Source: Paralichthys olivaceus
Lineage: Eukaryota; Chordata; Actinopteri; Pleuronectiformes; Paralichthyidae
Reading direction: 5' to 3'
DNA: 64,000 bases
Assembly: GCF_024713975.1 (NCBI RefSeq)
Contig: NC_091112.1
Span: 2,774,001 to 2,838,000 of the forward strand
Both the position numbers and the translations under genes were made by a program. The notes under the pieces were generated by a model. That model searched no databases. It had not been told where the DNA came from and saw only the letters and a program-made list of their open reading frames with translations. The stretch's first letter is position 1; the number at the start of each line of letters is the position of its first letter. Shown here in pieces: positions 16,600 through 60,141 of the stretch.

Positions 16600-18108
16600 T
16601 TATATCTGTAGGTCAGTCGGAGCTCGCCTGCTGCTGGCGCTGCTCGCCACGGACACTCTGCGGTTTGGAGAGGAGGCCGTGGGGCTGTTGCTCTCCCGGC
16701 TGTGTCGGGACACGGAGCTCAGCTCCCCTGCAGAGTCCGGGCTCTGAGACCGGCTCACTCTCTTAATGTCTGACTTGGAGAGCACCCTGGCTCTGGGGCC
16801 CACGCAGCTGCCACGTAGCTTCATGCTGCTGCCGTTCCCGTGGTAGGAGTCGCCGCTGTCCGAGCCATTCCCCTCCACCACCGTGGAGCAGTTCCACGGC
16901 GGACTGACCCTCCGAGACTTCCTCACAATCCCTGACAGTGTAGTGCAGGAGGAGGTGTCTGCTACAGGGAGGGTGGGATACTCGGAGCTCGCACACCCAA
17001 GGTCCTCATGATGTGGAGACCGTTCCTCCGGTTCATCCTGTTTGTCCGCAGGAGGTGAACGCGTCTCACTGCTGGTGTTGTTGGAGTTGCTGTTCTGCTC
17101 CGTGGGGCTCGGCATTCCCTCCTTGCTGTCCTTGTGGCCGTCTGGTTTTGCACCAGGGTCTCCTTGTATTGGCATGAAGGCAGAGGAGGCATTGAGCAGA
17201 GGGTAGTTGGGTCCGTTGCCCTGCTTCTCCAACAGTAACGTGTATCCACTCGGTGCTGTGGGGATGGTGGTCTTGCGTCCCACTGAGGTTCCCGTGCAAA
17301 CCTGATGAACGACTGAGTTCTTCTTGGACTTGCTGACGTAGTACTCGTCGAGGTCGTCCTTCAGGTGCGGGTAGAAGTCCAGGATGCCCTTCTTGAGCTT
17401 CTTGTAGCCCAGGTGCATGATCTCAAGGAGGCTGAGAAAGAGGGAGATGCAGGCGATGGCTTGCATGAACATCATGAACACGGACTTCTCTGTGGGCCTG
17501 GACACAAAGCAGTCCACCACGTTTGGGCACGGTTCCCTCTCACACTTGTAAAGCGGGCTCAGGTGGTGTCCGTACAGGATGTACTGACCCATCATGAAGC
17601 TGACCTCCACCACAGAGCGAGTGACGATGTGGGCCACATAGGTGCACAACAGAGACCCTCTGAGCGGCGCCTTGTTGAGCTTCCCTTGCTCCAGCTGCCT
17701 CATCTCCTTCTCGATCCTCCTCTTCGCCTCAGCCAGCTCCACGTCCACCGCCTCCAGCTCCCGACGCAGAGCCACCTTCTTGCAGTGGCGCTCCTTCTCC
17801 AGGGCCCGTAGCTGGTAGATGGCGTGGCCCATGTAGACCAGCGAGGGCGAGGACACGAAGATGACCTGCAGCACCCAGTACCTGATGAGGGAGATGGGGA
17901 AGGCCTGGTCGTAGCAGACGTTCCGGCAGCCGGGCTGATCCGTGTTGCAGATGAAGTCTGACTGCTCATCGTTCCACACGTCCTCCGCAGCCACACCCAG
18001 CACCAACATCCGGAAGATGAAGAGGATGGTCAGCCAGATCTTGCCGACCATAGTGGAGTGGATGTGGACCTCCTCCAAGATCCCACCAAGGAAGTTCCAG
18101 TCTCCCAT
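16600..18108 (-). CDS. gja9: Gap junction alpha-9 connexin
   Basis: Connexin that oligomerises into hemichannels and gap junctions in the plasma membrane. The coding region is a single exon of 502 residues (human GJA9 515). It starts [20 protein letters not shown]; four membrane spans follow the connexin plan. The first extracellular loop has the C-x6-C-x3-C pattern ([12 protein letters not shown]) and the second C-x4-C-x5-C ([12 protein letters not shown]). The cytoplasmic loop is long and charged ([20 protein letters not shown]). The C-tail is long and Ser-rich, ending RRAPTDLQI, close to the human GJA9 end. Its neighbour mycbp is also adjacent in human, but there both lie on one strand; here they converge. 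A splice acceptor at 18126 shows that an upstream untranslated exon exists, with a candidate ending ...GCAAG|GTAAATG near 19316. Confidence 0.95.
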
Positions 18109-18124
18109 GGTTTACATCAGCAGA

Positions 18125-32100: not shown

Positions 32101-35100
32101 CACGAAGACGGTGAAGAAGATGACAGTGATGATGGCGGTGAGGAACATCTGCTTCATCTCCTTGTTGGTCAGCAGGAAGCCCAGTGAGAAGGCGATGGCC
32201 CCCCGCAGGCCCCCGTAGGCCACGATGAACTGTTCCTTTTTGTTCAACTTCACGATACGAAATTTATTGATGATGTACGTGAGTCCGATGACCCCTGAAA
32301 CACACAACAACAACAAGAGGCAGCAACGTGTGTTATCGTACACTATGCTGACAAATCACACAACAACATGACACATAATCGAGGTTGTGTCCGTTTGCAC
32401 TGACCCAGAACCCTCGACACCAGACACAGGATAAGGGTGAGGATGACAAAGGTCCAGTTCCAGGCGTGAGGGCCGGCTACCGTGGAAACGCCGAGGAAGA
32501 TGAAGATGAGCGTCTCGGTCACGCTGCTCAACATCTTCAGGAAGTATTTGATGGTGGTGTGGGACTTGTGGGAGATGTTGGCCTCCACGTACGGCCGCAT
32601 TACCACGCCACACGCTATCAACCTACGCGGGACGGGAGCAGAGGAGAAAATATTCTTGAGACGAGCCGCTCTGTTTTCAGTTCAAGGTCAGTCGCACGTT
32701 CCAGGATATTTTAGATTTCTGTCAGAGTCTGACTCACGACATGATCCCCGACAGGCGGAAGACCTCAGCGGAGAGGTACGCCATGTAGCTGTAGAGGAAG
32801 ACAAACAGCGGCTCGATGACTCGAGTGTGAGAGGTGAAGCGGGAGGTGAAAGCACCCAGGAGGCCGTAGATGGCTCCGACCATGATGCCTCCCAGGGAAA
32901 CCACGAAGAAGCAGATGACGCCGAGGAGGGCGTCGCCCACAGTCACAGTTCCTGCTTCAGAAAACTCCTTGAACAGGTGATACAGAACCTGCAGGGAGAG
33001 GAACAGAGGCAGAGCCAATTTGGAAATGGAAATACTCAAGTTCAAGTAAACACAAAATTATTCTCCAGCCTCCCTCTTTCGCTCCACTCACCACGGTGAC
33101 GGCGTCGTTGAGGAGCGACTCCCCGAACACGAGGATGTGCAGCAGCTCGTTGATGTGGATCTCCTCGAACACGGCCAGCACGGCCACGGGGTCCACGGCC
33201 GAGATGATGGAGCCGAACAGGAGGCAGGACAGCAGGTCCACGCTGGCCAGCTGCGCCCCCTCGATCTGACACACGCCGTACATCATCCCGCCGACAAAGA
33301 AGGTGTTCCACAGCGTGCCCACCACCGCGAACACCAGGATGGTGCCCAGGTTTTCCACGAAGGGCCGGATGGGCAGGAAGTAGCCGGCGTCGAGGATGAT
33401 GGGAGGCAGCAGGTAGAGGAAGAAGAGCTGGGAGTGGAGGATGGGGGCTTCCTCTCCGATGGCTTTGATGAAGCAGCCAACAAGAAGACCGACGACGATC
33501 AGCAGGCAGCTCTCCGGGACCACGTTCGACACATGGGGAATAATGTGAAAACCTGCGGAGTGAGAGGATTTCAAATTTTTATGTCTCTGCACCAAAGCTG
33601 GTGACGTTAGATTGTTGGGTTGTGGGTCCCATTCACATCGTTCATATCTCAAGAGCGCTTTGAAGAAGTGTCTTCAAATACAAATCAGGGAAAACACCCA
33701 CTGAGAGAATCTGCAAACGTCCTCAACAAGGGTCGTTCACTAAGCGGGAGGTCGGTGGTTTGATTCCCGGCTCCTCACTGTGTGGGTGAATGTGTGAATG
33801 GGACTTGTACTGTAAAGCACTTTGAGTGATCGACAAGAAAAGTGTTATAAAAAGTATTGACCCTCTCTCTCTTCACTGAACGAGCCTTGGCATTTGTTCT
33901 GTGCGTCACATGACTCCAGGCTGCTGAATACGAGCCAGTCAGTGGTCTTGTGTGCAGCCCCCCCCCCCCCCACCTCTCCACTCTGACTCCGCACTCTGCA
34001 CACTGACATCTTTGTTATCGAGCTGTGCGTTTGGACAGGAAGTGGGACCGGTCCTCGGAGAGCACAGCTGGACGAACAGATAAAGATGCAAGTGAGCGTC
34101 ACTCTTCAAGCCGATCACAAACCACCGTCCTACATCGAGGCTGGTGCCCATTTCAATATTCAGTTGGTTGTTATGTAAGACGGATAAAGTTTCAATATAC
34201 ACTTGAACAAAAGTTGATGAAGTAATAATGAGATTGGCTCGTGATTGGTCGAGCACGTCTACAGGCACGACCCCCACGATCACGACGGCTCAGACTCAAA
34301 ATGTCCAACGATTCATCTCTTATCAGTGACCTTCAGCTCTGACGCAGATACACAGAGCCAACTGGTCTGTGGCATTTATTATCATCATCATTATGTTTTT
34401 GATTACTTGTAGTGGAGCTGGCTTGTGTCCCACCGCTCCACAGGTTGTGTTCATCTTCTCCAATCTGCAGCTTCTCTTTGTCGTGGGTTGAACAAAACGA
34501 GACATTTGAAGAAATTTGACATTTTTAATTTTCTCACTAGTCACTGGTCAGTCTGCTGTAGTTTAACAATCCATTAGTTTGACATTTTCAGTCAGAATCC
34601 ATTTGAATCTCCTCACGTGAGTTCAGAAATTCAAAAATTACTTTAGAAACTTTGGACATTTAAGTGAAGGGCTCATTAACCAGAGTTTGATCCACCAGCT
34701 CCTCTCTCTGGTCTATTGATTCAGTATAGATGGATTCAGTATAGATGGATTCAGTATTCATGGATTCATGGATCTGTCAGATCGGTAGTTTGTCTCTCAC
34801 CTAGCTTCATGAGCAGAGCCAGGAGGATCCACAGGGAGATCTCGAACGGCTTCCTGACGTCCTCGTAGTGGAAGGAGAGGACGGGGAAAGCCTTCTTGTG
34901 AGCCGTGGAGTTACTCGAGTTGTCAGGGTGCTGCTCCCCCGGCTGTGCCTCCCGGCCTGGGTCCCTCCGCGTCCCGTTGCTTTCCCCCGTCACCTCGTCA
35001 CGACTCGCGGAGGCACCGACAGCGAGCAGCAAAACGCAGGCGAGGACCCCGGCGAGACGCGCTGCGGAGCGGCCGCCGCTGCCGCTGCTTCTCCGGGGAG

Positions 35101-46597: not shown

Positions 46598-47698
46598 TCG
46601 GGGAAAGGTTTGATTGTCTTCTCACGGGAAACGCGAGCGACGCCGCCTCATCTCCCCGTGTTTTCTGTCCTCAGGTGTCAGGCGGCTTCCTGCGCTCACA
46701 CCTCGGTCACCGACAAATCAAGAACTATCCGCCGATAACAACACAGCGACCCGCCGGGAGCACCTTCAACTCGGACTCGGTTTGTTTTCTGGTGAAGTCT
46801 GAATAATGGTAATTGAAGCGCTATCGTCCAGTGGAGGACAAACTCAAACCGTGGCAGCTGCAGCTCGCGGAGCAGAGGCACTTCCGGTGACAACAGAAAC
46901 CCAGCTGCCACCGGGGCCCTTTGTTGCCATAGTGATGACCGGAAGCTGCCTCTGTCAGAACATTTGTATTTTGTTGTTATGAACCAACGAAACGGACATG
47001 CTAGTTTTTTTAAACCAAGTTTTATTCTCGTGTCTTTACACGAACTCAGTTCAGCGACAATGACCCCAAGGACAGAAATGATGATGCATATCCTGTTAGA
47101 ATAAAGTGAAATGTGCTGATATTAAAAGCGAACTTTTTTTACTTTCCTGGCCAACCAGTAATTAGCAAAAACATAAACAACAACAAAAAAAGTAAAATAG
47201 TAACAATAAATCTTTTTGAAGTTGAACTAAAACCCCTAAAACATCTGGATATTTAGTAGAGGAAACATATTTATCGTTTTCACATGAAGTACTGCGCTAA
47301 CTGATTTGCTGCCTCGGGTCGTGGCAGCTTCTCTCCTCGAGCTGCCGCTGCCGCTGCCGCTGCCGCTGCCGCTGCCGCTGCCGCTGCCGCTGCCGCTGCC
47401 GCTGCCGCTGCCGCTGCCGCTGCCGCGACCCGGACTCCCGCGCGGCGTACTCCCGTTGCTATGGCGACCGCGTAGAGTACGGAGAGCGGCGCGGTCCAAC
47501 CCCGCCCACTTCCCCTTTCAAGCCGGAAGTGCCGTCCTGCTAACAACAACAACAACGACGCGGCGGCGGCGGCGACCAGCCTCTCCGCTCCCGCAACAAT
47601 AGTAGGGATCGAACCTTTTGCTGCGGAGGAAGAACGAACCATCCAGAATCTCCCATGAACGTGAATTCGTCCCGGGGCTGGTGAAGCGCGGGTCGGCC
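46598..47698. promoter_or_regulatory. Divergent cfap69/kdm1b promoter interval
   Basis: About 1.1 kb separates the two divergent ATGs. It is GC-rich near both ends, with ETS-like CTTCCGG at about 46880, a hexamer microsatellite at 47341-47425 and CpG-dense DNA from 47430 to 47700. The middle (about 46970-47280) is AT-rich and featureless, so two separate promoters are as likely as one shared one. Confidence 0.5.
47341..47425. repeat. (CCGCTG)n hexamer array
   Basis: About 14 nearly perfect GC-rich hexamer units lie 270-360 bp upstream of the kdm1b ATG. Every frame is open because the unit length is a multiple of three, which produces spurious Leu-Pro, Ser-Gly and poly-Ala reading frames. Confidence 0.95.
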
Positions 47699-50600
47699 AT
47701 GCTGTCAGACGCAGGTCAGTGTTAGCTGCTGCTGCTGCTTCTTGCTAATTGCTAAACGTGACACTGGTAGCTTGGTTTAAAGGGCTCGATTAACGTCGTT
47801 GTACGCTCACTCCACCGGCTACCGGCGGCTCAGCTTGTCTCCACGCGGACACACGGGGGTGTTGTATTGTGTTACATTGTTGTCGTGCTTGTCCAGACTA
47901 CTCCGGGAATGCCTCCGGCGCCCGGCGAGCCAAGAAGAGGAGCTCCGGGGAGTCACCGGGGGACAGCCAGACCCTGCGCTCCTCCGGGAGACAGATCAAC
48001 GTCCGGGTGAAGCGAACCAACAACCCCCCACCTGGACAGGTAACCACTGAGCCGGTTCTATACTCGATCCCATTTATATCAGAGTCTGACTGATACCTCA
48101 AGTACTTGAGAGTATTCATACATATTCATGTTTATATATCATACATGTCTATATACACACATATTCATATATTTCAACATCTTCTGATGCACAAATACAG
48201 TATTTAATCTACTTTTTTGCAAATGTATTACATGTTCCTTATGTGTTTATTGCGTCTCTAACTTTTTTACTGTTTCCTCTTACTTTTACAAACCCTCTGC
48301 AGCATCTTTGCCATTGTCTATATTTGAGAAACAGAATCTTTCACAAACTGAGTAGGACATTTTAGAGTTGAAGAATAAGAAGGTGACAGGTACATTTCCT
48401 CGGACATAAAGTATCTTTAGCATATACTAGTCTGTATTGCAGTTTCTCATACATCACAACATGTACACTGTATTTATCGCAACCTTACTTCAGGTCACTG
48501 TATGAATTATGATTTGTTGAGTTAAGTTCGGTAATAACACTCTCAACACTTTCTTCTAGAGCAAAAGAAAAGCTACGGACACAGAGGAAGAAGACGATCA
48601 GTCTGAGAAGAAGTACAGAAAGTGTGAGAAGGCTGGATGTTCTGCCACGTACCCCGTTTGTTTTGCGAGTGCAAATGAGAGGTACCAGGTTTCTTGGTAA
48701 AACAGAAGTAAGGATTTAAGTTACGTGCTTGTTGACAGTGGGTCATTCTTCTGTCTCCTCTCAGGTGTGCTAAAAACGGATACACCTCTCGATGGTATCA
48801 TCTTTCCTGTGGTGAACATTTTTGCAATGAATGCTTCGATCACTACTACAGGAGGTAATGTTGACAGAGCCGCTGAACACATAACCTCCGCACAATACTG
48901 TACCACATCCTGGGAAATCATCTTCGTTCTGTCTGAAGAGTATAAGTCAGATATTTTGATTGATTTTTTTCTAATTTTTAGCCACAAAGACGGTTATGAG
49001 ACCTTTGCATCGTGGAAGAAGGTGTGGACGAGTAATGGGAAAAGTGAGCCCAGTCTTAAAGCTTTCATGGCAGATCAGCAGCTGCCGTTCTGGGTACGAG
49101 CACGCTGCTTTCCTGTTTCCTGTTAAACAGCTGAATGTGGTATCTCTGAGTTCTCCATACATACTTTACATGTGACTTTCAGGTTCAATGCACCAAACCG
49201 GACTGCAGGAAGTGGCGTCAGCTCACAAAGGAGATCCAACTCACTGCTTCCTTAGCAGCAACATATCGCTGTGGAATGAAGTTCAACAACATTAAGGTAA
49301 ATAGGAAACTGAAAAAGGAGGCATTGACTCAGTGCCATTTTTTGGTTGTAATTACCTTGTTTGTTTCTCGACAGAGTGAAGGACCAGACCACTGCTCCCA
49401 ACCAGAGGACCTGGTAAGAGCTGGGGAGGATTCCAGAACAGATCATAGCAAATAATGAACAGTTTTCAGCCAGTAAAATTCATTATACAAATTCTAAATG
49501 AAATGATTATGCATCAATTGTGTGTCATTAAAAGATGATCCATTGTATTTCATTCTCTTTAACCCCAACTCTTTTATTTACACAGAGAGTAGCTGAGGTG
49601 ACCGACAGCTGGTGGCATTCAATGCTGATTTTGCCGCCACTGTTTAAAGAAAGTCCAGCCAGCCCTTTCCTCGCTGCCTACTACCCCGACTGTGTGGGAA
49701 TGAGTCCGTCAGGCTCTCCCAGCAACATGGCTCTGAACGATCTGAGGGCTGATCACTGCCGAGCTGTACAGCCTCAAAGTAAGTGTGTGAGTACAGGTGA
49801 AATTTAGAGATGTCAGTCCAAACCACCAATGTGGTTTATTAATCATTACTGTGCCCCTCAGTTCCAGGTCTGTGTCCGTACTTCCAGCCCTTCTATCAGC
49901 CTAATGAGTGTGGCAAGGCTCTGTGTGTGCGGCCGGATATGATGGAGCTGGATGAGCTTTACGAGTTTCCAGAGTTTTCCCGTGATCCCACCATGTATTT
50001 GGCTCTGCGTAACCTTATTCTGGCTTCCTGGCACAAGAACTGCAAGGTATGCTGACATCTGCCAACACTGAACTATCTGTTCATCTATTGAACCAGGAAA
50101 TGATTTTCTTTCTTATCTTTTTTTAGCTCTTAAATGTCTCATTGTTCCCTAAAAGTGATTAATTTCAAACTCCACAAAACAACAAGCAGTTGATTTAATT
50201 AATCTATTTATTTCTAAAGGAGATGCTGACTTCTCAGAAATGTGCACAGCACATCATTGTCCGGGGGTTGGTGCGTGTGCGCTGCGTGCAGGAGATGGAC
50301 CGGGTGCTCAACTTTATGACCAGGAAGGGTTTGATCAACACGGGTGTGCTGGCGGTCAAACAGCCGCTCCTCCCTGAAAGACACCGTGCTGTGAGTGTCA
50401 ACAGCTCACATCTATATATTTGTGATTATTAATTTAGTTAAAGCTCACAGTCATCCAACATCGTATTTTTACAGAAGAACGTTATCGTCATCGGTGCTGG
50501 AGCTTCAGGACTTGCTGCTGCACGGCAGCTGCAAAACTTTGGCGCTCAGGTTAAAATACTTCACTTAACTTGGATTCTTATTTCACATCTTACCACTGTT

Positions 50601-53131
50601 GTCTGCTCACAGAGTTACATACTTTATTTCCTTTGATTTTGCAGGTGATGGTGCTGGAGGCAAGGGAGAGAATTGGAGGACGAGTGTGGGATGATTTGAC
50701 TCTGGGCGTCACTGTGGGCAGAGGAGCACAAATTGTCAATGGTTGTGTAAATAACCCCATCGCCCTGATGTGTGAACAGGTAAGAATTAATATGTATTAA
50801 TGTATGGACCCAAAATACGTTGCTTTATTTAGATCATGACCTTTAGTCTATTAAATATTTGTATTTCTAATATTTATGATCGACTAAACACGGTATCCTG
50901 TGCTGCCCTGCTATCAACTCTAAAAGCTATGTTCCCTCTTCCTCCTGACGCAGATGGGCATCAAGATGCACAAGCTGGGGGAGCGGTGTGACCTCTTCCA
51001 GGAGGGAGGACAGGTTACTGACCCGGCCATTGACAAGCGCATGGACTTCCACTTTAACGCCATCCTGGACGTGGTGTCAGAGTGGAGGAAGGACAAGTCA
51101 CAGAACCAGGACACACCCTTGGGAGGTGCTGAACCAATCTCACAGAGCACCTGATAATATTATCAGGGAAGAGTAATTCTTGGCCTTCTTGAAGAAAACT
51201 GAATTTTGATTTATTTTTAATGTATTATCCTGATTTTATTCCTGCAGAGAAAGTCCAGGAGGTGAAGAAGAACTTTCTGCAGGAGTCTGGGATCCAGTTC
51301 AGTGAGTTGGAGGAGAAAGTGCTTCAGTTTCACCTCAGCAACCTGGAGTATGGCTGTGGAAGCATGTTAGACCAGGTCTGGAAAACTCAGAACTTAAAAA
51401 GAACTCTGCAAGTTTTTATTCCTGTTTGAGGGTCGGCACGAACAGAAAGTCACATGGTGTGTTTTGATGGACAGGAAGTTCAGGCTGGAAAATCCCTCAG
51501 TCTCTTTGAACTATCCTTGAACTGCATCCTGCTCATATCGTAATATAATACAAATGTTTGTTTGTAGGTATCAGCAAGATCCTGGGATCACAACGAGTGT
51601 TTTGCCCAATTCTCAGGAGACCACACTTTACTCAACAAGGGCTACTCTGTTTTACTCCACAAACTGGCCGAGGCCCTGGACGTCCGCACAAAGTGTCCGG
51701 TTTGTTTGACTTTTCTTATTTTTTTAAACTTACTTTTACGACTTCATTTTTACTTTACTTACACTTACATTTTAGCATTAAGTTGTGTACAATATATACT
51801 GCAATAAATGTACTCGTTAAAAATATTTTAGGTTCAGGCCATTGACTACTCAGGTGACGTTGTCAGAGTTACCTCCTCCAATGGGTCCCAGTGGACGGCA
51901 CAGAAGGTAAGAACAGGATCTCTATTATCCATAAAGACTTAGAGGATGTAACAGTTCAAATAAGCAAAATCTTTTATCCTTGACTTTATTTCATGTTTAT
52001 TTTTACTTTAATGTCCTTTCCTCTTTTAGGTTCTTGTTACAGTCCCATTGACTTTACTTCAGAAGAATTTGATTCAGTTCAACCCTCCACTTCCTGAAAG
52101 GAAACTGAAAGCAATCCACAGTCTGGGAGCTGGTATCATAGAAAAGGTAAAAACTGCCTGATGTGTCTGTAAGTTTCACTTCTCTGTCTGTGGGTAAATG
52201 ATGAAACATCTGTATCTCCACCTGCAGATCGCTCTTCAGTTCCCGTACAGATTCTGGGACAACAAAATCCAAGGGGCAGATTACTTCGGTCACATCCCAC
52301 CAGGTCCTGACAAGAGAGGCATGTTCAGTGTCTTCTATGACATGGATCCACAGGTTTGTTTCTCTCCTTTCACCCACAAGACAAAGACACAAACATCGTC
52401 TTACTGCTATTTGTCTTTTCTATTATATTTAAGTCTTCTTTCTGTGTTAACAATGAGAGACTGTGCTTTAATGCTGCTGTATTGTATTTGTAGGGAAAGC
52501 AGGCTGTCCTCATGTCAGTGATCACTGGTGATGCCGTCCCTGCTGTTCGGGACCTGGAGGACAAGGCCGTGGTTGATGAGTGCATGAAAGTTCTGCGAGA
52601 ACTTTTCAAGGAACAGGTAATGACATCATATTCACAGTTAAATGTTTGTGTGTGTGTGTGTTTCTGATCTCTGTTATTTTCTTCTTGCCATCCTGACAGG
52701 ACGTCCCGGAGCCGATACATTTCTTCGTCACACATTGGAGCAAAGACATATGGTCCCAGATGTCTTACAGCTTTGTGAAGACAGGGGGCAGTGGAGAGGC
52801 CTATGATATCCTTGCTGAAGACATCCAGGGCAAAGTCTTCTTCGCTGGCGAGGTAAAATAATTAAGAACAGTGCAATGTAAATAATGTTCATTATCGTTA
52901 TTAGTTCTTACTTTTACTGAAAAGGTTTTTTTTAGTTGTGCTCATATTAAATTAAATTGTGAGATGTTAGGTCATCACAGGTCAAACAAATGTTGTGACT
53001 GTACTTTTTAATTGATGTATTTTAATAGTTACCATCTTTGTTACCAGGCCACCAACAGACACTTCCCTCAGACTGTGACAGGAGCCTACCTCAGTGGGGT
53101 CCGAGAGGCCAGCAAGATGGCTGCTATGTAA
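47699..53131 (+). CDS. kdm1b: Lysine demethylase 1B (LSD2/AOF1)
   Basis: FAD-dependent nuclear demethylase of mono- and dimethyl H3K4, needed in mammals for maternal imprint setting in oocytes. 21 exons from ATG 47699 to TAA 53131 give 834 residues (human 822), with consistent phases. In order: basic N-terminus; a Cys-rich zinc-binding region ([35 protein letters not shown]); CW-type zinc finger ([29 protein letters not shown]); SWIRM-like region ([38 protein letters not shown]); FAD-binding [13 protein letters not shown]; amine oxidase core with the catalytic-site Lys in [14 protein letters not shown]-terminal FAD block [19 protein letters not shown]. It lacks the LSD1 tower insertion, as expected for LSD2. 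The first coding exon has only 16 nt. Confidence 0.97.
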
Positions 53132-54866
53132 ACTGTCAGCACCAGATCACTCAACAGCACCAGCATGGACACACACGGGTCTCACTGAGAAAAACAGCTC
53201 TGACTGTGTTACCTTAGTCGCTCCACACAACGTTTCACCAAGCTGTTATGTGTCCGATCTCCAGGACCCGGCTCCACATACTTAACACCCGATTGATTAA
53301 AGTGATTTTTATTTATGTCACAAACCAGCTGTAAAAATAATTTTAGTTGGCGACAAGAAGCAAAAATCCATAGTAGCAAAGAAGGGAGACTGGATTACCC
53401 TGTGTAGCTCTGCCATGTTCCACTGTGCTGGAGAGCAGGATGATGTTATCTTGAGTTTAACGGTGATGAGATGGTCAAACATTTTCTTTTGTAGAGCCGA
53501 TGCTGCATGAAACATTGGTTAACTCTCCGTTTTCTAATCATCAATCAAACTGAATAAGATTTAATCTGCAGAGATCAGGTTTCAAGAGATGATACAGTGA
53601 TATTTAAAAACGAAATCTTCTTTGAGAGTTGCCTACCAATGATTTATACAACTCTAACAGATTTGCATTGTTTTGCATGTGTTATATGTGTGTTGGTACA
53701 AATGGTGTAGGGAACTGGATGAAAGGTTAGATATTTACTATTAGTCCTTCTGCGATAGCACTTTTATTTATAGCCTTGATTTGATTTGAAAAAAGGAAAA
53801 AAAAAAAGAAAGGAATATTTCACGTCACAAGGTAAATTCCTCTCATGGTTGAGATTGATCAGAAGACCCCAGATCGTCCCCCTTACTTTCTCAGGGATTT
53901 GATCAGGATTAGGATTTTACAACCTAGACAAAATAATAATGTATTTGTACAATTTTGAATATCATTGTTTAAAAAAAAAAAAGGTCACACAAACAACCAA
54001 AGGAGGAAAGTAAATCCGACCTATTTCCCTTGTGTTAGCTCTCGAATTCAAACTAAACCTTTAGCTGTTGGGGGTTGGGAATCAGCACAGCAATGTCCTC
54101 ACTGTCTTTTAATTAATGTTGATTAACGATGCTTTACATGTAGAGTCATATCTGTGTGAGAATCTAGAACCACGTCCTGTCCGTCTGACATTACAGTGCT
54201 TGAGTATTTATCTTGTATGTGTGTAATAAACTGAGCTTTCAACTGCCACCATCCGCTGATCGGTTTGACTCTGGAGGAAGATGAACACGTTAGTAACTCA
54301 AAGTGATGTTTGAATGAGTTGCTCTATTCTGTAAAATACACTTTAATGTCTTAACTTTCCTCTACGCTGCAGAGTACTGTGTTCCAAAGTCCAGAATACT
54401 CATCTAGTAATTAGCACTTATATATGATAAGTATATATATTATACAAAACATGATTTTTTGGGGGCTAAAATTAAAAACAAATGCAGATTTCCCAAGAAA
54501 TCCAGGATTACCTTTCCCTCTAGTTTTGTTGGTAGGGAGTCAGGGAACCAATGACGGTACGAGACGTCATCAACACTCGCCCGAGCGCCTTCCTCCAACG
54601 CGGGGACGGAAGAAAACAAACCGATCGTGAACTGGGAGGAAAGAACAAGGTGTTCAGGAGGAACTGGTTTCAAACGTGGGAACCGACTCCTTGTGTTGTG
54701 TCTGCGGTTTGACGGAGCAGAACATCTGGGGGGAGACAAAGCTCGTAAAAAAAGAAACAGCTGGATAGTTAAGCTAACATTTCCTGTGAAACCAGAAGCT
54801 AACAGCAGCAGGATCAATTGGCGCCTTTCGGATGAGGAGGATATAAAAGTCACAGTGATCAACAAC
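53132..54866. other. kdm1b 3' UTR and next gene's promoter
   Basis: A 1.1-kb kdm1b 3' untranslated region probably ends after AATAAA at 54225. From about 54540 the DNA becomes more GC-rich and holds the leader of the SSDDEPLI repeat gene. No other gene is seen. Confidence 0.55.
54225..54230 (+). terminator. Candidate kdm1b poly(A) signal
   Basis: AATAAA in GTGTAATAAACTGAGC, about 1.1 kb after the stop and the best signal before the next gene. Confidence 0.55.
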
Positions 54867-57800
54867 ATGGACGTTAGCACGTGTGACCAGCCCGGTACCG
54901 AGATACACGACTCTCCAGGTAAACAGCTGATGGGTGATGGGTTTAAAAAAAAAAAAAAAAAACCATCTGAGCTGTGGAGCCAGATGTGTGGGAGCTAAAC
55001 TAAGTTGGTGAAACAAAGATGGAGGAGTTCACGCTGACCAAGTCCGAACACGATAAATGCCACATCATTAATTCTTTCAAGTGCAACATCTGATTCTGAC
55101 ACTCACACCTCTGCGGCTGCAGCATGGGAGTTTCCACCGCGGGTCATGTGGTCGAGTGAGGAAACCTGGTGACAACACAGAGGGGACGAGATCCAAACGA
55201 TGAAAGTTTAATGAGACTTATTATATATTATTATTATTAAAGACTTATTCATTAGAACACTCCCCCCACTGATTTCTGAGAAAATCAAAAGTTGTCTACT
55301 TTTTCAGTGCGACACTTGCACAACTTGCTCACGTTAAATATTATTATTAAAACATCCTTGAGAGGTGACACAGATATTTCACGCTGCTCGTGTTCACGGT
55401 GACCTCCACTGTGTGTGTGTCACGTTTCAGTAGATTTGACCACAACAAAACGAGTGAATGTTTTATGCACCTGTTGCTGGTCAGACATGTAAACTTCAAT
55501 TACAGAAGTGTTTTTAGAATGTGGTATTACTGGTTGTACTGGTTGGATCAGAGTGCTTGTCCTACCATCAGTAATAAAAGGTAATACTTTCACATAACTT
55601 TTATGGTAATGGCTCCCAATACAATTCAAAATACTTGGCTCCAGGATGTGTAAACTAAAAATCTCTTGTGGTACAAATGAACCGTAGAACTCAGATGTTC
55701 AGATTTACCAGAGGAACCTCGAAAGGGAGTTTCTGACTCATTCATCTCATTGTATCTCTGACTGATGACAGGGAATGACAGCCCCAGCTCTGATGACTTT
55801 GAACCACTTTCAAAACTGCTGAAAAGGGGAAACAGTGAGGAGAAACAGTCAAGCCCATCGTAAGTAAACTATTTTCAGCAAAAGCAAAAAGTGCTAAATC
55901 TGCGTGTTTGTATCTTCTCCTGTTGTAGCTTCTGATCACTCCGACGACAATGAGCCGCTCATCAAGAAGAAAAAACCTGTGCAAAAAGAAAACACATCCA
56001 GATCTAACAGCACAAACAAGAATTCTGGTGAGTTCTTCAACACGTGTGTGTATTATTAACTGTCTTGCTGATGTTAGCGATGATTCACTGTCTGGAGTGA
56101 ATCGCCTACATTTTTTGCTCTTTTTCAGATTTGAACACAAACGACAGCTCTGACAATGAGCCTCTCATAAAGATCGCCAAAACTGCAAAGAAGCCTTTCT
56201 CAGCGCCTCCAAAAAAATCTGTTGACACAAAGAAAAAAGGTGATAAGGAGTAAAGTTGTTGTTTTACAGCCTCGTCTGCTTTTATGGCATCAATTGGCTT
56301 CATTTTCAGTTGCTTAGAGGAGCCCATGCTTGCTCAAGGACAAGTTTGAAAGCAATGCCACAATGTTATAGCCAGTTTTGAATTGAAAGTACAATGTTTT
56401 CAACCTGATGATGTGTGACCTTTAAAAAGAAGAATGTGTCAAATGTGTCTGTTTATATCTTCTCCTGTTGCAGCTTCTGATCACTCCTCAGATGACGAGC
56501 CGCTGATAAAGATGAAAACAAAGAAACCTGGGAAAAAGGAAAACACTTCGTCCAGATCTAATGGCACAAAAAAGAATGCAGGTGATTACATCAACATAAG
56601 TTTTTATCTGTATTGCTGATGTTATCGATCGATCTCTTAGAAAGAGGCAACTCTGGCATGTGCAGATGTTTTGGATTCTTACGAAGTCTGTACTTGGTGA
56701 CCCTCCCTTTGGTGGATGATACAGTTTGGAACAGCAGCTGGAAGTCTTCCTGCTCTTGATTGATTTCCAGCCACTCCTCTTGGAGACAAAGTGCATTAAA
56801 GGTTCAGCGTGTAGGATTTAAGTCAAAGGGCTCTATCGGCAGAAATTTAATATAAAATAATCCTTGTGATGTTATCACTCGTATGTGATGATCTAAATTA
56901 CACAAATTGAAGTACAATACTTTCAACCTGATGTAGTGTGACCTTTGAAAGAAGATGTGTCTGTTTATATCTTCTCCTGTTGCAGCGTCTGATCACTCCT
57001 CCGATGACGAGCAGCTGATTAAGATGAAAACAAAGTTTGCATCTGCTAAGAAACCCGGCAAAAAAGAAAACACATCATCCAATGACCCAAACAGCAACAA
57101 TACAGGTTAGTTACATCACCAGTCCATCAGCAGGTTGGTTTCTGAATGTTGACTTTGCTGTATGTAACTGTTTTGACTATTCGAACACAGACAGCTCTGA
57201 CAATGAGCCTTTGATCAAAATCGCCAAAGTGTCTTCCAAAGCTGCAAAGGAGCCTCCAAAGAAATCTGTTGATACAAAGAAAAAAGGTACGGTCGCTGTC
57301 TCCACATGAACCTGCGGCATCAACAGAACGCTGCTGTTCTCTCTCACAGATTCTTGACACTTGAATCTTTGTTTTTACACAGAAGCACCAGCTGACGATG
57401 ACGATAGTTTGGATGATGAACCTCTGAGTGAAACTGCCAAGAAACTTAGATCCAGACATCAGCCAAAAAGATCATCTAGAAAAGAAAGCCCGGTAATGAA
57501 ATCCCAAAGGACGGCAGCGAGGAAAAAGGGTGGGTGTGAAATGTAGAAATTTAAAAATGTCTAAAAGGCTTTTTCTGAGAAGATCGGGACCAAAAATATA
57601 TTTTGCTTTATTCCAGTTAAATATGCAGAGTCATCCAGCGACAGCTCAGATGATGAACAACTGACAACAATAAAAAACAAGACAGCGGCTGCATCGGCAA
57701 ACAACAAGAAAACAAAATCAAAACAGACAGACAAATCACTAAAAGGTATGTACCACTTTATTGGACTGACCAGAAGGAAATAACTCTATTTTGTTTAATT

Positions 57801-58684
57801 ACAAGTTGTTCAGTTGCTAAACTCTTGGGTTTTTAAAGACTCTTCATTCTCAGACAGCAGCTCGGACGATGATGACGAGCCCTTGGCGAACCTTAAAGCC
57901 AATAAGAAGAAACCAGTGAAGAAAAACACAAAGAAGACAACTGCACCGCGAGGTGGTGCCTCAAAAAAGAGACGAGGTACTACGGCAGCATTTCTAACGA
58001 GATGAGAAGTACACCATGTACACCAGTACTTTAGATTGAATCCTTGTTGCTGTGACTGTTTGGCAGGACTGACGAATGAAAGCTCAGACGACGAACCCTT
58101 GATAAGCCTTGTGAAGAAGAACCACACAGACAAAGAAAGGAAAACCAAAACAAATTCTTCGACGGCAAAAAAGAGGAACACAGCCCCCCCAAGAAAGCAC
58201 GTGTCAGGTAAAGACTGGTAAAGGTAACACAAGATAATAAGCAGATCATGACACTAACAGCAGACGACTACGTTTGTAGCAGAATAGAACAAACAAGAAT
58301 CACATGTTTGAAAATGAGTAGTTAGAGGTAAAAGACGAATCTGCTCTGTTGACTCACACCTTTGTTTTGTCAATATTTTTTAGGGTCATCAAGTGACGGA
58401 TCTGACGACGACCCCTTAATCACAGCAGCTAAACACCCTCAGGTGACCAAACTCCTGAAAATAATACTGGACAGGTGTGACGATGACGAGGCCAGACCAA
58501 CGGGAAGCTCGGACCAGACCAGAACAGGTACCGATCACAGAACGATGCGATTATTGATGCCGCGATTAAAGTCTCGAATTAAAAAGTGATATTCTTCATC
58601 TCCAAAGCAGAAACAGTGGTCGCTGAAGGGAATCCAACCAAGGAAGAATCAGAGGGTTCAAAGGAATCATCAGGAGAAGAATAA
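54867..58684 (+). CDS. Unrecognised SSDDEPLI repeat-exon nuclear protein
   Basis: Family not recognised. Thirteen exons: 54867-54918, 55772-55834, 55929-56027, 56129-56239, 56474-56581, 56986-57105, 57191-57286, 57383-57529, 57617-57745, 57854-57976, 58067-58207, 58384-58527, 58608-58684; 469 residues. Every intron is phase 1. Exons 2-12 each open with an acidic SSD(D/N)EPLI-type motif (casein kinase 2-like sites); exons 3-11 then run into a Lys/Ser/Thr-rich basic tail with KKPGKKENTS or KSVDTKKK blocks. Exon 12 instead ends in a short helix-like HPQVTKLLKIILDRCDDDE. Low complexity and alternating charge predict a disordered nuclear or chromatin protein. The start ATG has good context (AACAACATGG). 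SDDEPLI also occurs in the DEK C-terminus, and DEK neighbours KDM1B in human; a link is possible but unproven. Confidence 0.8.
56374..57110 (+). repeat. Recent tandem duplication inside repeat gene
   Basis: Exons 5 and 6 and their upstream introns are near copies about 510 bp apart. Both introns carry a TTGAA(A)GTACAAT..TTTTCAACCTGATG block, a GTGTGACCTTT block and TTTATATCTTCTCCTGTTGC before the AG. The exons share SDHSSDDE(P/Q)LIKMKTK and KKPGKKENTSS. Exons 4 and 7 also share DSSDNEPLIKIAK and KSVDTKKK, so an alternating A-B exon unit has been copied. Confidence 0.8.
56796..56905 (+). repeat. Interspersed repeat remnant
   Basis: TTAAAGGTTCAGCGTGTAGG and GGGCTCTATCGGCAGAAATT followed by TAATATAAAATAATCC resemble the ends of a repeat common in spiny-rayed fish. 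It is truncated, within the intron between exons 5 and 6 of the repeat gene, and explains part of that intron's extra length. Confidence 0.6.
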
Positions 58685-60141
58685 GAAGAAGAATCATCGT
58701 GTTACTTTGTCAAAGAAAGGCTCATTGTCACCTTTCAGTTTCTGGACTGGGACGTTCCAACCACTTAGTTTTAAGGAATTTACCAAAAGGTTCTTATTCC
58801 CGAGATTAATCCCCTAAACATCACAGTTAATGTTTATACAGTATGAAGTTAGTGTTTATACAGTATGGAGTTTAAGTATGTTTTATATATGAATATATAC
58901 ATGTTTATTTAAGTAATTTTACTCCAGTTTTTAGGTTTGGGACCAGGTTCCTGAAAGATGAAATGCACAGTCTTTAATGGTGTTTTACTATTTGTGCCTT
59001 TTTATTTGCATTGGCTGTTTCCTCTGGTTTTAACACTTGTTGATGTTAGGTATATTTTTGCTTTCATATTATCTGTACCCTCAGCATGAGGCAGTGAAAA
59101 TCTATTATGATGGATTAAACTGCTCAGATGAATCCGTCTCTGTCAGTTGTCTTTACACACACATGCACACACACACACAGTATTTACAAAACTGCAATTA
59201 TACTCTATATGTCACTGCTGCTTACAGTGGCAACATGGAACCTAATGGAAAAAATGCTAATTTTAAAATAAAAATATTGATATTGAATAAATGACTCCTT
59301 ACAATTCAATGATAAGATCCTTGTCCTATGTGCACAGGACAGTGACACATTTCGGCTCTGGTTTGGAGACACTGGGTCACATGACATGGAAGGAAATGAT
59401 CTATGTCCCTCTGCTGTCCTGCTTTCTGTAATAATATGAAACATGGGGGGGGAAATTCAATTGAACTGTTAATATAAAATAAAAGACGCACTAAAATTCC
59501 ATAACAACATATGTGTCCTGTGTGCACATGGTAATTATACAATTCGGCTCTGGTTTACATGACATGGAAGCTGTTAAATAATAGAAATTCAAATAAATGA
59601 GATTTATACACATTGGCAATAAAAATAATAAGGAAAGTCAGCAGGAAGAGATTTACCATAAAATTAGTTTAATATGATTTGAGTGGTATTTTATGTGAGT
59701 GTGTCTGAGAGTAATCACGGTGGTGGAGAGCGGTGGTTCTGAGTTTGACTGCCCGTCCTCTGACGACCATCCCCGGGTGAACTGAGCCGGAAGACGCCGC
59801 CGCTGGAGTGAAAGCACCGCGGTGCCACAGTCAAACACTTCCGGCATGTCCCGGTCCCGGCCCCGGCAGCAGCAGAACAGTTCCCCCCCAACCTCTCCTC
59901 CTCCTGTCCAGCTCACACCGCTTCCACACAGCGACGCCCCGCGATGTTAGTTCTCATCTCCGTGGAAGAAAAGTTCCCCCCGGAGGAGGAGTGAAGCTTC
60001 ACCCGGGCCTGTCATCACCCACCCGCGGAGGCACCTCACAGCCGAGTCCCGCCGGTGCTATCTGGGGTTAGCTGCCCGCCTGTTAGCTAGCATGCTGCCG
60101 CCCCTCCACAGCGCACAACTCTCCCAGGACTAATTCTCGTC
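58685..60141. other. Repeat-gene 3' UTR and dpy19l4 promoter
   Basis: No further gene. A possible poly(A) signal AATAAA lies at 59286. A local direct repeat spans about 59318-59570. From about 59760 to 60140 the DNA is CpG-rich and forms the dpy19l4 promoter and leader. Confidence 0.55.
59318..59570 (+). repeat. Local direct repeat, two copies
   Basis: Two copies about 190 bp apart share TGTCCT.TGTGCACA, a TTCGGCTCTGGTTT block and CACATGACATGGAAG-like ends. They are moderately diverged and of unknown family. Confidence 0.7.

Follow-up and report, generated by a model that had tools for sequence, protein, structure and literature searches.

What kind of protein is encoded where eleven consecutive exons each carry a single acidic serine motif, and from what could such an arrangement have arisen? 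The question is posed by a locus on the plus strand at 54867-58684 of a 64,000-nucleotide stretch of the Paralichthys olivaceus genome (NC_091112.1, contig C20 of this analysis, 2774001-2838000; hereafter the window), which was compared with the genome as a whole (588 Mb in 25 contigs). The answer put forward here is that the locus probably encodes a disordered, CK2-tunable, charged nuclear scaffold derived from DEK by the multiplication of exons.

The frame itself is the starting point. Joined, the thirteen exons give an uninterrupted frame of 473 residues, closed by a stop; an earlier note on this DNA, made from its letters alone, had given 469 residues. Each of the 12 introns interrupts the frame in phase 1 and has GT-AG ends, and the internal exons, of 63-147 bases, are each a multiple of three (the first exon has 52 bases, the last 74), which bears out the phase-1 introns and symmetric internal exons described in that note. 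A chance figure calculated for twelve equal phases is given no weight, because introns that were copied from one another do not count independently. Exon 1 (54867-54918), with its start codon in the context CAACATGG, encodes an 18-residue acidic leader that lacks the motif, and exon 13 (58611-58684) encodes a short acidic C-terminus and the stop codon. Ranked with a simple matrix, 17 of the 24 splice sites lie above the 96th percentile among all GT or AG sites of the window. The seven lower ones are the acceptor and donor of exon 2 (percentiles 90 and 95.9), the acceptor of exon 7 (93), the acceptor and donor of exon 10 (80 and 85), the donor of exon 12 (92) and the acceptor of exon 13 (94). 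The model is weakest at the donor of exon 2, where phase 1 is reached only by the site after 55834 (ACA/GTGAGG); the GTAAGT after 55859 would give phase 2 and break the frame into exon 3. Around the acceptor of exon 10 there are further AG sites, one in frame (57854) and two out of frame (57858 and 57861).

These weaker sites, which include those of exons 2, 10 and 12, would be in keeping with a decayed or never-expressed exon chain that does no work and stays open by chance. Such an explanation must contend with a frame that is open across 13 exons and with the way in which the duplicate exons of the gene, described below, differ from one another. Over their full aligned length the ratio of replacement to silent substitution rates (dN/dS) is 0.11 for exons 3 and 5, 0.22 for exons 5 and 6, 0.28 for exons 3 and 6 and 0.25 for exons 4 and 7, with raw counts of silent differences, in the same order, of 11.8/21, 9.5/21, 11.3/32 and 10/23 and binomial P values against neutral site shares of 0.00026, 0.0045, 0.038 and 0.016; the comparisons share exons and are hence not independent. 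Hand-picked blocks give 7 silent changes and 1 replacement in 26 codons for exons 5 and 6, and 5 silent and 1 replacement in 23 codons for exons 4 and 7, but these blocks were chosen for their similarity and the full-length ratios are the fairer count. Because silent differences are in excess per site, the comparisons support the view that the duplicate exons are translated and constrained, and they count against a dead or chance frame, which we regard as very unlikely. Judged from these features, 54867-58684 is a real protein-coding gene and is presumably expressed.

Each of its eleven internal exons supplies one unit, in which an acidic head is followed by a tail. The heads read SSDDFEPL in exon 2 (55772-55834, where the basic tail is short), SDHSDDNEPLIK in exon 3 (55929-56027), DSSDNEPLIKIAK in both exon 4 (56129-56239) and exon 7 (57191-57286), SDHSSDDEPLIKM in exon 5 (56474-56581), SDHSSDDEQLIKM in exon 6 (56986-57105, where the basic tail has an NSNNT end), DDDDSLDDEPL in exon 8 (57383-57529, tail net +11), SSDSSDDEQL in exon 9 (57617-57745), SSSDDDDEPL in exon 10 (57839-57976, tail net +13), ESSDDEPLI in exon 11 (58067-58207) and SDDDPLI in exon 12 (58384-58527), all but the last leading into a basic tail. 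The core is EPL in eight units, EQL in exons 6 and 9 and DPL in exon 12. A pattern devised after the exons had been seen, [DN][DEN][DEF]?[EDF][PQ]L, has 12 matches in the six frames of the 64 kb, every one of them in frame within this gene; there is one per internal exon except in exon 10, which is matched twice as the pattern overlaps itself. Nine of the eleven tails are strongly basic (net +4 to +13), that of exon 2 carries +3 and that of exon 12 has -1, and charge is more segregated along the product than in any of 2000 shuffles (z 7.6). The earlier description of one acidic motif per internal exon, of basic tails in all but the first and last of these and of an alternating-charge modular protein is thus upheld, that of the tails with little change.

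Lysine and arginine make up 20.7% of the product, aspartate and glutamate 17.1% and serine and threonine 23.2%, and there are 5 aromatic residues; so charged and serine- and threonine-rich a composition, with so few aromatics, suggests disorder. CK2-type sites number 28, against 18.8 expected (16 of 2000 shuffles reach as many), and occur in 10 of the 11 units, exon 3 having none under a strict pattern. The computed net charge of +17 would become -39 if all 28 were phosphorylated. Matches to SUMO-interacting motifs (LIKI and similar) are also frequent, 6 against 0.93 in shuffles, and are confined to exons 4, 7, 11 and 12. Where the other units have a basic tail, AlphaFold predicts for the exon 12 peptide, taken alone, helices spanning residues 10-15 and 18-35 (mean predicted local distance difference test score 76). 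A likeness of this helix to the HIRIP3/CHZ motif, which has no Pfam match to back it, was dropped.

The motif had been presented simply as a different one, which is not supported in that form, since the SSDDEPLIK segment occurs in DEK. A literature word search for SSDDEPL gave no match, and the shorter SDDEPL led to DEK; a human DEK phosphopeptide, SSDDEPLIKK, with phosphoserines at 301, 303, 306 and 307, is listed in phosphoproteomics tables, as far as the portion of the source consulted goes (PMC5643318). When 177,635 distinct PDB sequences were ranked with a profile built from the 11 units, two sequences of DEK came first, at E 0.014 and 0.015, followed by an artificial repeat protein at E 0.022 in which no stretch passed alone. 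The full product, compared with PDB sequences and NCBIfam, gave adenylate-kinase matches alone (E 0.25 and 0.15), which were judged to be chance.

The genome holds its own counterpart of this segment. A genome search for the DEK_C domain identified 10 places, one of which, on contig C13, carries DDSSEDDEPLIKM just upstream of the domain. The gene at this place (about 732.6-735.6 kb, minus strand), which lies near a voltage-gated potassium channel-like gene (BTB_2, Ion_trans), has in one frame DEK_C at E 7.6e-11 and SAP at E 0.051, the latter under the curated cut-off, and is taken here as the genome's own dek. In the model of this gene introns 1-9 have phases 1,1,0,2,0,0,0,1,0, and exon 9 encodes SSEDDEPLIK. 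Its phase-1 intron 8 lies 7 residues before EPL, an offset that is identical in exons 3, 5 and 6 of the window gene; in the remaining units the intron lies 4 to 12 residues before the motif. Every one of the 11 units is preceded by a phase-1 intron, the exon 3 unit only by way of the weak exon 2 donor. The shared phase-1 intron and offset are supporting evidence for common descent, short of proof. When the unit profile was run against 3434 open reading frames (ORFs), drawn from the fetched loci and from the window outside the gene, with the ten loci that hold the gene (L001-L010) left out, the dek exon came first at E 1.1e-5 and the next entry at 0.85; two overlapping loci place the dek exon in this ranking twice. 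Taken as whole units, eight of the eleven (2, 3, 4, 5, 6, 8, 10 and 11, by exon) score against dek exon 9 at a level that no more than 3 of 1000 shuffles reach, and unit 7 at one reached by 5 of 1000, although these matches depend on the short head. Beyond the head, likeness is found in a few tails: against dek exon 8 in exon 6 (10 of 1000 shuffles as good) and weakly in exon 3 (44 of 1000), and against the part of dek exon 9 that follows EPL in exons 11, 2 and 10 (2, 9 and 14 of 1000).

Could the resemblance have arisen twice? Nuclear proteins often contain acidic motifs rich in serine, and a short linear CK2-type acidic motif might have appeared independently here, in a low-complexity nuclear protein that is confined to its lineage, owes its growth to the tandem duplication of exons and has no relation to DEK. 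Several findings weigh against DEK ancestry, and those on the length of the core, the tails, the introns and the direct searches speak for this explanation. The core common to the gene and DEK is short, about 10-12 residues. Apart from the tails of exons 3 and 6, the nine others are unlike dek exon 8, with 191 or more of 1000 shuffles doing as well, and eight of the eleven are unlike the remainder of dek exon 9 (125 or more of 1000); as a whole, unit 9 is no closer to dek exon 9 than its shuffles are (198 of 1000), and exon 12 matches it weakly (41 of 1000). The introns fare no better: among 11 of the 12 window introns, intron 1 being left out at more than 450 bases, the best match to dek intron 8 is intron 3 (6 of 200 shuffles as good), which is not above a control dek intron that gave 0 of 200 and 3 of 200 for two other window introns. 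Given the introns of dek, chance alone would place a phase-1 intron at most 12 residues ahead of the motif in roughly 7% of cases. Nor do direct searches connect the two genes. The dek exon 9 peptide as a genome query matched dek alone (1 candidate scored), and the full product gave 13 matches up to E 10, every one inside its own gene (28 candidates scored), so that no second copy was found either; the match at exon 1 is weak and crosses stops. No Pfam family matched the product up to E 1 or, for six single exons, up to E 10. Of the neighbours, the potassium-channel gene beside dek has no close paralog near the window, and a search with one ORF of CFAP69, which flanks the window gene, found no second copy (3 candidates scored); neither lends the link support.

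An independent motif would, however, leave several shared details to coincidence: dek, too, has isoleucine and lysine following EPL, and it shares the phase-1 intron as well as the offset of 7 residues. The form ending in isoleucine and lysine is, moreover, nearly limited to these two genes. A degenerate DNA pattern for D-[NKDE]-E-P-[LF]-I-K occurs at 7 places in the 588 Mb, of which 4 are in this gene, 1 is in dek and the remaining 2 are in ORFs that are 35 and 61 residues long (reversed as a control, the pattern has 2 matches), and DEK ranks first in the PDB search, which was unbiased. On balance we consider an independent origin of the motif rather unlikely, and DEK ancestry likely, not proven.

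Descent from DEK is a different matter from being a DEK. DEK_C was not found in the product at E up to 1 or in exon 12 alone at E up to 10, against 7.6e-11 for the genome's own dek, and SAP was found neither in the product at E up to 1 nor, with the limit set at E 10, in the three plus-strand frames of 53.0-60.1 kb; the SAP test is weakly sensitive, as the dek region used as its control gives SAP at just E 0.051, below the cut-off. The gene shares with DEK the SSDDEPLIK segment with its CK2-type serines, here with no recognised DEK_C after it, together with lysine-rich surroundings and, in exons 3, 5 and 6, a phase-1 intron 7 residues before EPL; it differs from DEK in the absence of the two domains from what could be found, in showing little likeness beyond the short segment and in having 11 units against 1. 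By its predicted domain plan the gene is not a DEK.

How the units multiplied can be read in part from the exons themselves. Within a tandem-duplicated block at 55880-57288 on the plus strand, 55880-56596 matches 56425-57121 (63.3%) and 55898-56241 matches 56955-57288 (64.1%), so that, within exons 3-7, exons were duplicated together with introns. The duplicated unit consists of two exons, the first of type A and the second of type B, each with the intron that follows it, and is present as exons 3-4, as exon 5 alone and as exons 6-7 (exons 3, 5 and 6 being type A, exons 4 and 7 type B). In the middle copy the type-B exon is unrecognisable: a remnant in intron 5 was sought and rejected, since for exons 4 and 7 used alone 53 and 199 of 200 shuffles, respectively, score as well there. 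A more extended query, which starts in intron 3 and includes exon 4, lies narrowly above all 200 shuffles (29 against a maximum of 28), in an alignment that is mostly of the intron part and runs weakly on into the place of the exon. So the second duplicate has apparently lost its type-B exon beyond recognition or never had one. Because the exons were duplicated in tandem with their introns and one type-B exon is missing, the number of exons in the gene has probably changed in its past, which lends support to the exon-number change that the earlier note had proposed. Intron 5 also contains a dispersed repeat at about 56795-56913, with at least 39 other genome copies at 82-88% identity (among the best 40 of 811 candidates scored). 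A separate observation is that exons 5 and 6 are directly preceded by an identical run of 31 intron bases (56443-56473 and 56955-56985), though the exons differ at several silent sites; gene conversion or a constraint on splicing are possible explanations.

One repeat per exon is already a known design. The central region of treacle has 11 repeats across exons 6A-16, that is, 11 exons, in the sections of the sources consulted (PMC9133508, PMC7957619), one of which also gives 10 repeat units (PMC7957619). According to the same portions of the literature, acidic CK2 motifs alternate with basic linkers in treacle, and its alternating charge blocks stabilise condensates, normal condensation being lost when the blocks are scrambled (PMC9133508, PMC7957619, PMC11996177); NOLC1 (Nopp140) likewise alternates acidic, CK2-phosphorylated segments with basic ones (PMC9133508, PMC7957619). 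The treacle-like design attributed to the gene earlier therefore agrees with what these sources describe, and it is what could be said for the gene being a fish treacle (TCOF1) or NOLC1 whose motif has diverged. That identification we regard as extremely unlikely. The product has no match to the Treacle family, LisH or SRP40_C (Pfam, E up to 1), it is shorter than treacle, and its motif is DEPLI rather than rich in serine and glutamate and differs from that of NOLC1; a genome search with the Treacle family, which matched nowhere, controls included, was uninformative. The gene also lies between CFAP69 on the opposite strand (Pfam CFA69_ARM_rpt) and a downstream DPY19-family gene (Pfam Dpy19), whereas human TCOF1 is placed between CSF1R and SPARC in the text consulted (PMC7957619). 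Taken together, the gene is likely to be DEK-derived and to work like the treacle repeat domain while being a member of neither family.

On the reading that derives the gene from DEK, its origin would lie in the repeated copying of a segment that spans a single phase-1 intron in a DEK-type gene. Exon 8 of dek closes with a lysine-rich stretch (...KKADSSSNSKNNTNT), and exon 9, on the other side of intron 8, opens with the acidic DEPLIK segment. Each copy would have taken in the latter (3') half of such a lysine-rich exon, the intron itself and, with SSDDEPLIK, the first (5') half of the exon that follows. Tandem duplication with breakpoints inside both exons would create a junction exon with a DEPLIK head and a lysine-rich tail, and each new exon would be flanked on both sides by a copy of the same phase-1 intron. 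Duplication of a single intron would explain why all intron phases are equal and why the order of head and tail is constant in every unit. The helix predicted in exon 12 would be expected if the last unit had retained the start of DEK_C, the sequence match, as noted, being weak; the SAP and DEK_C folds of DEK would otherwise be absent from the product. What would remain is a disordered nuclear protein in which 11 acidic, mostly CK2-type serine motifs alternate with lysine-rich blocks. It would attach to nucleic acid or chromatin by its nine strongly basic tails and would switch when its heads are phosphorylated, to give a multivalent, phosphorylation-tunable scaffold for chromatin or RNA, akin to the repeat domain of treacle. 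A nuclear location, phosphorylation and a role in condensation or at chromatin we infer from these parallels.

A bolder version of this history can be offered tentatively and may well prove wrong. The gene would be a sister of dek from genome duplication that lost exons 2-8, with SAP, between phase-1 introns 1 and 8, and whose remaining block of half-exon, intron and half-exon was multiplied into 11 phospho-switch units, so that from a folded nucleosome binder there came a disordered, treacle-like block polyampholyte that can change length by whole exons. The wider chromosomes, a consideration on the side of the DEK link in general, fit an old duplication that would relate C13 to C20. In the window there is a single-exon ORF of 503 amino acids on the minus strand at 16600-18111, which we take to be connexin-like, and an exon on the same strand at 32957-33673, presumably NHE-like; the closest genome paralogs of the NHE-like and connexin-like ORFs (70% and 62%, respectively) are both on C13, at distances from dek of 4.6 and 4.9 Mb. 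C13 also has a Dpy19 gene, 2.9 Mb from dek, and another is on C1.

Of the surroundings of the gene, 54501-54866 (plus strand) is a likely promoter and 5' untranslated region, with a CpG observed/expected ratio of 0.83 against 0.59 in the gene, and candidate polyadenylation signals lie on the same strand at 59114-59291 (ATTAAA at 59114, AATAAA at 59267 and 59286), with three additional AATAAA further downstream at 59478-59618. On the minus strand, open frames at 52054-52861, between CFAP69 and the gene, form a probable multi-exon gene that has no Pfam match, and an ORF at 47280-47744 carries a long alanine run. Among viral contigs, 48 stretches fitting the pattern included no relative. The literature matches listed contain nothing apparently relevant to a DEK paralog in fishes, and the gene itself is absent from them, which does not show that it is undescribed.

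If derivation from DEK is right, a charge-patterned scaffold would have been made from a folded chromatin protein by one simple type of step, in which duplicating one intron and two half-exons adds a complete acidic and basic module in frame each time. It would represent an independent route to the treacle-like design, in which repeat number and function could be compared across fishes. It would also isolate the segment at the edge of the DEK C-terminal domain, which is invisible in the DEK-nucleosome structures, going by the part of that report consulted (PMC12263440).

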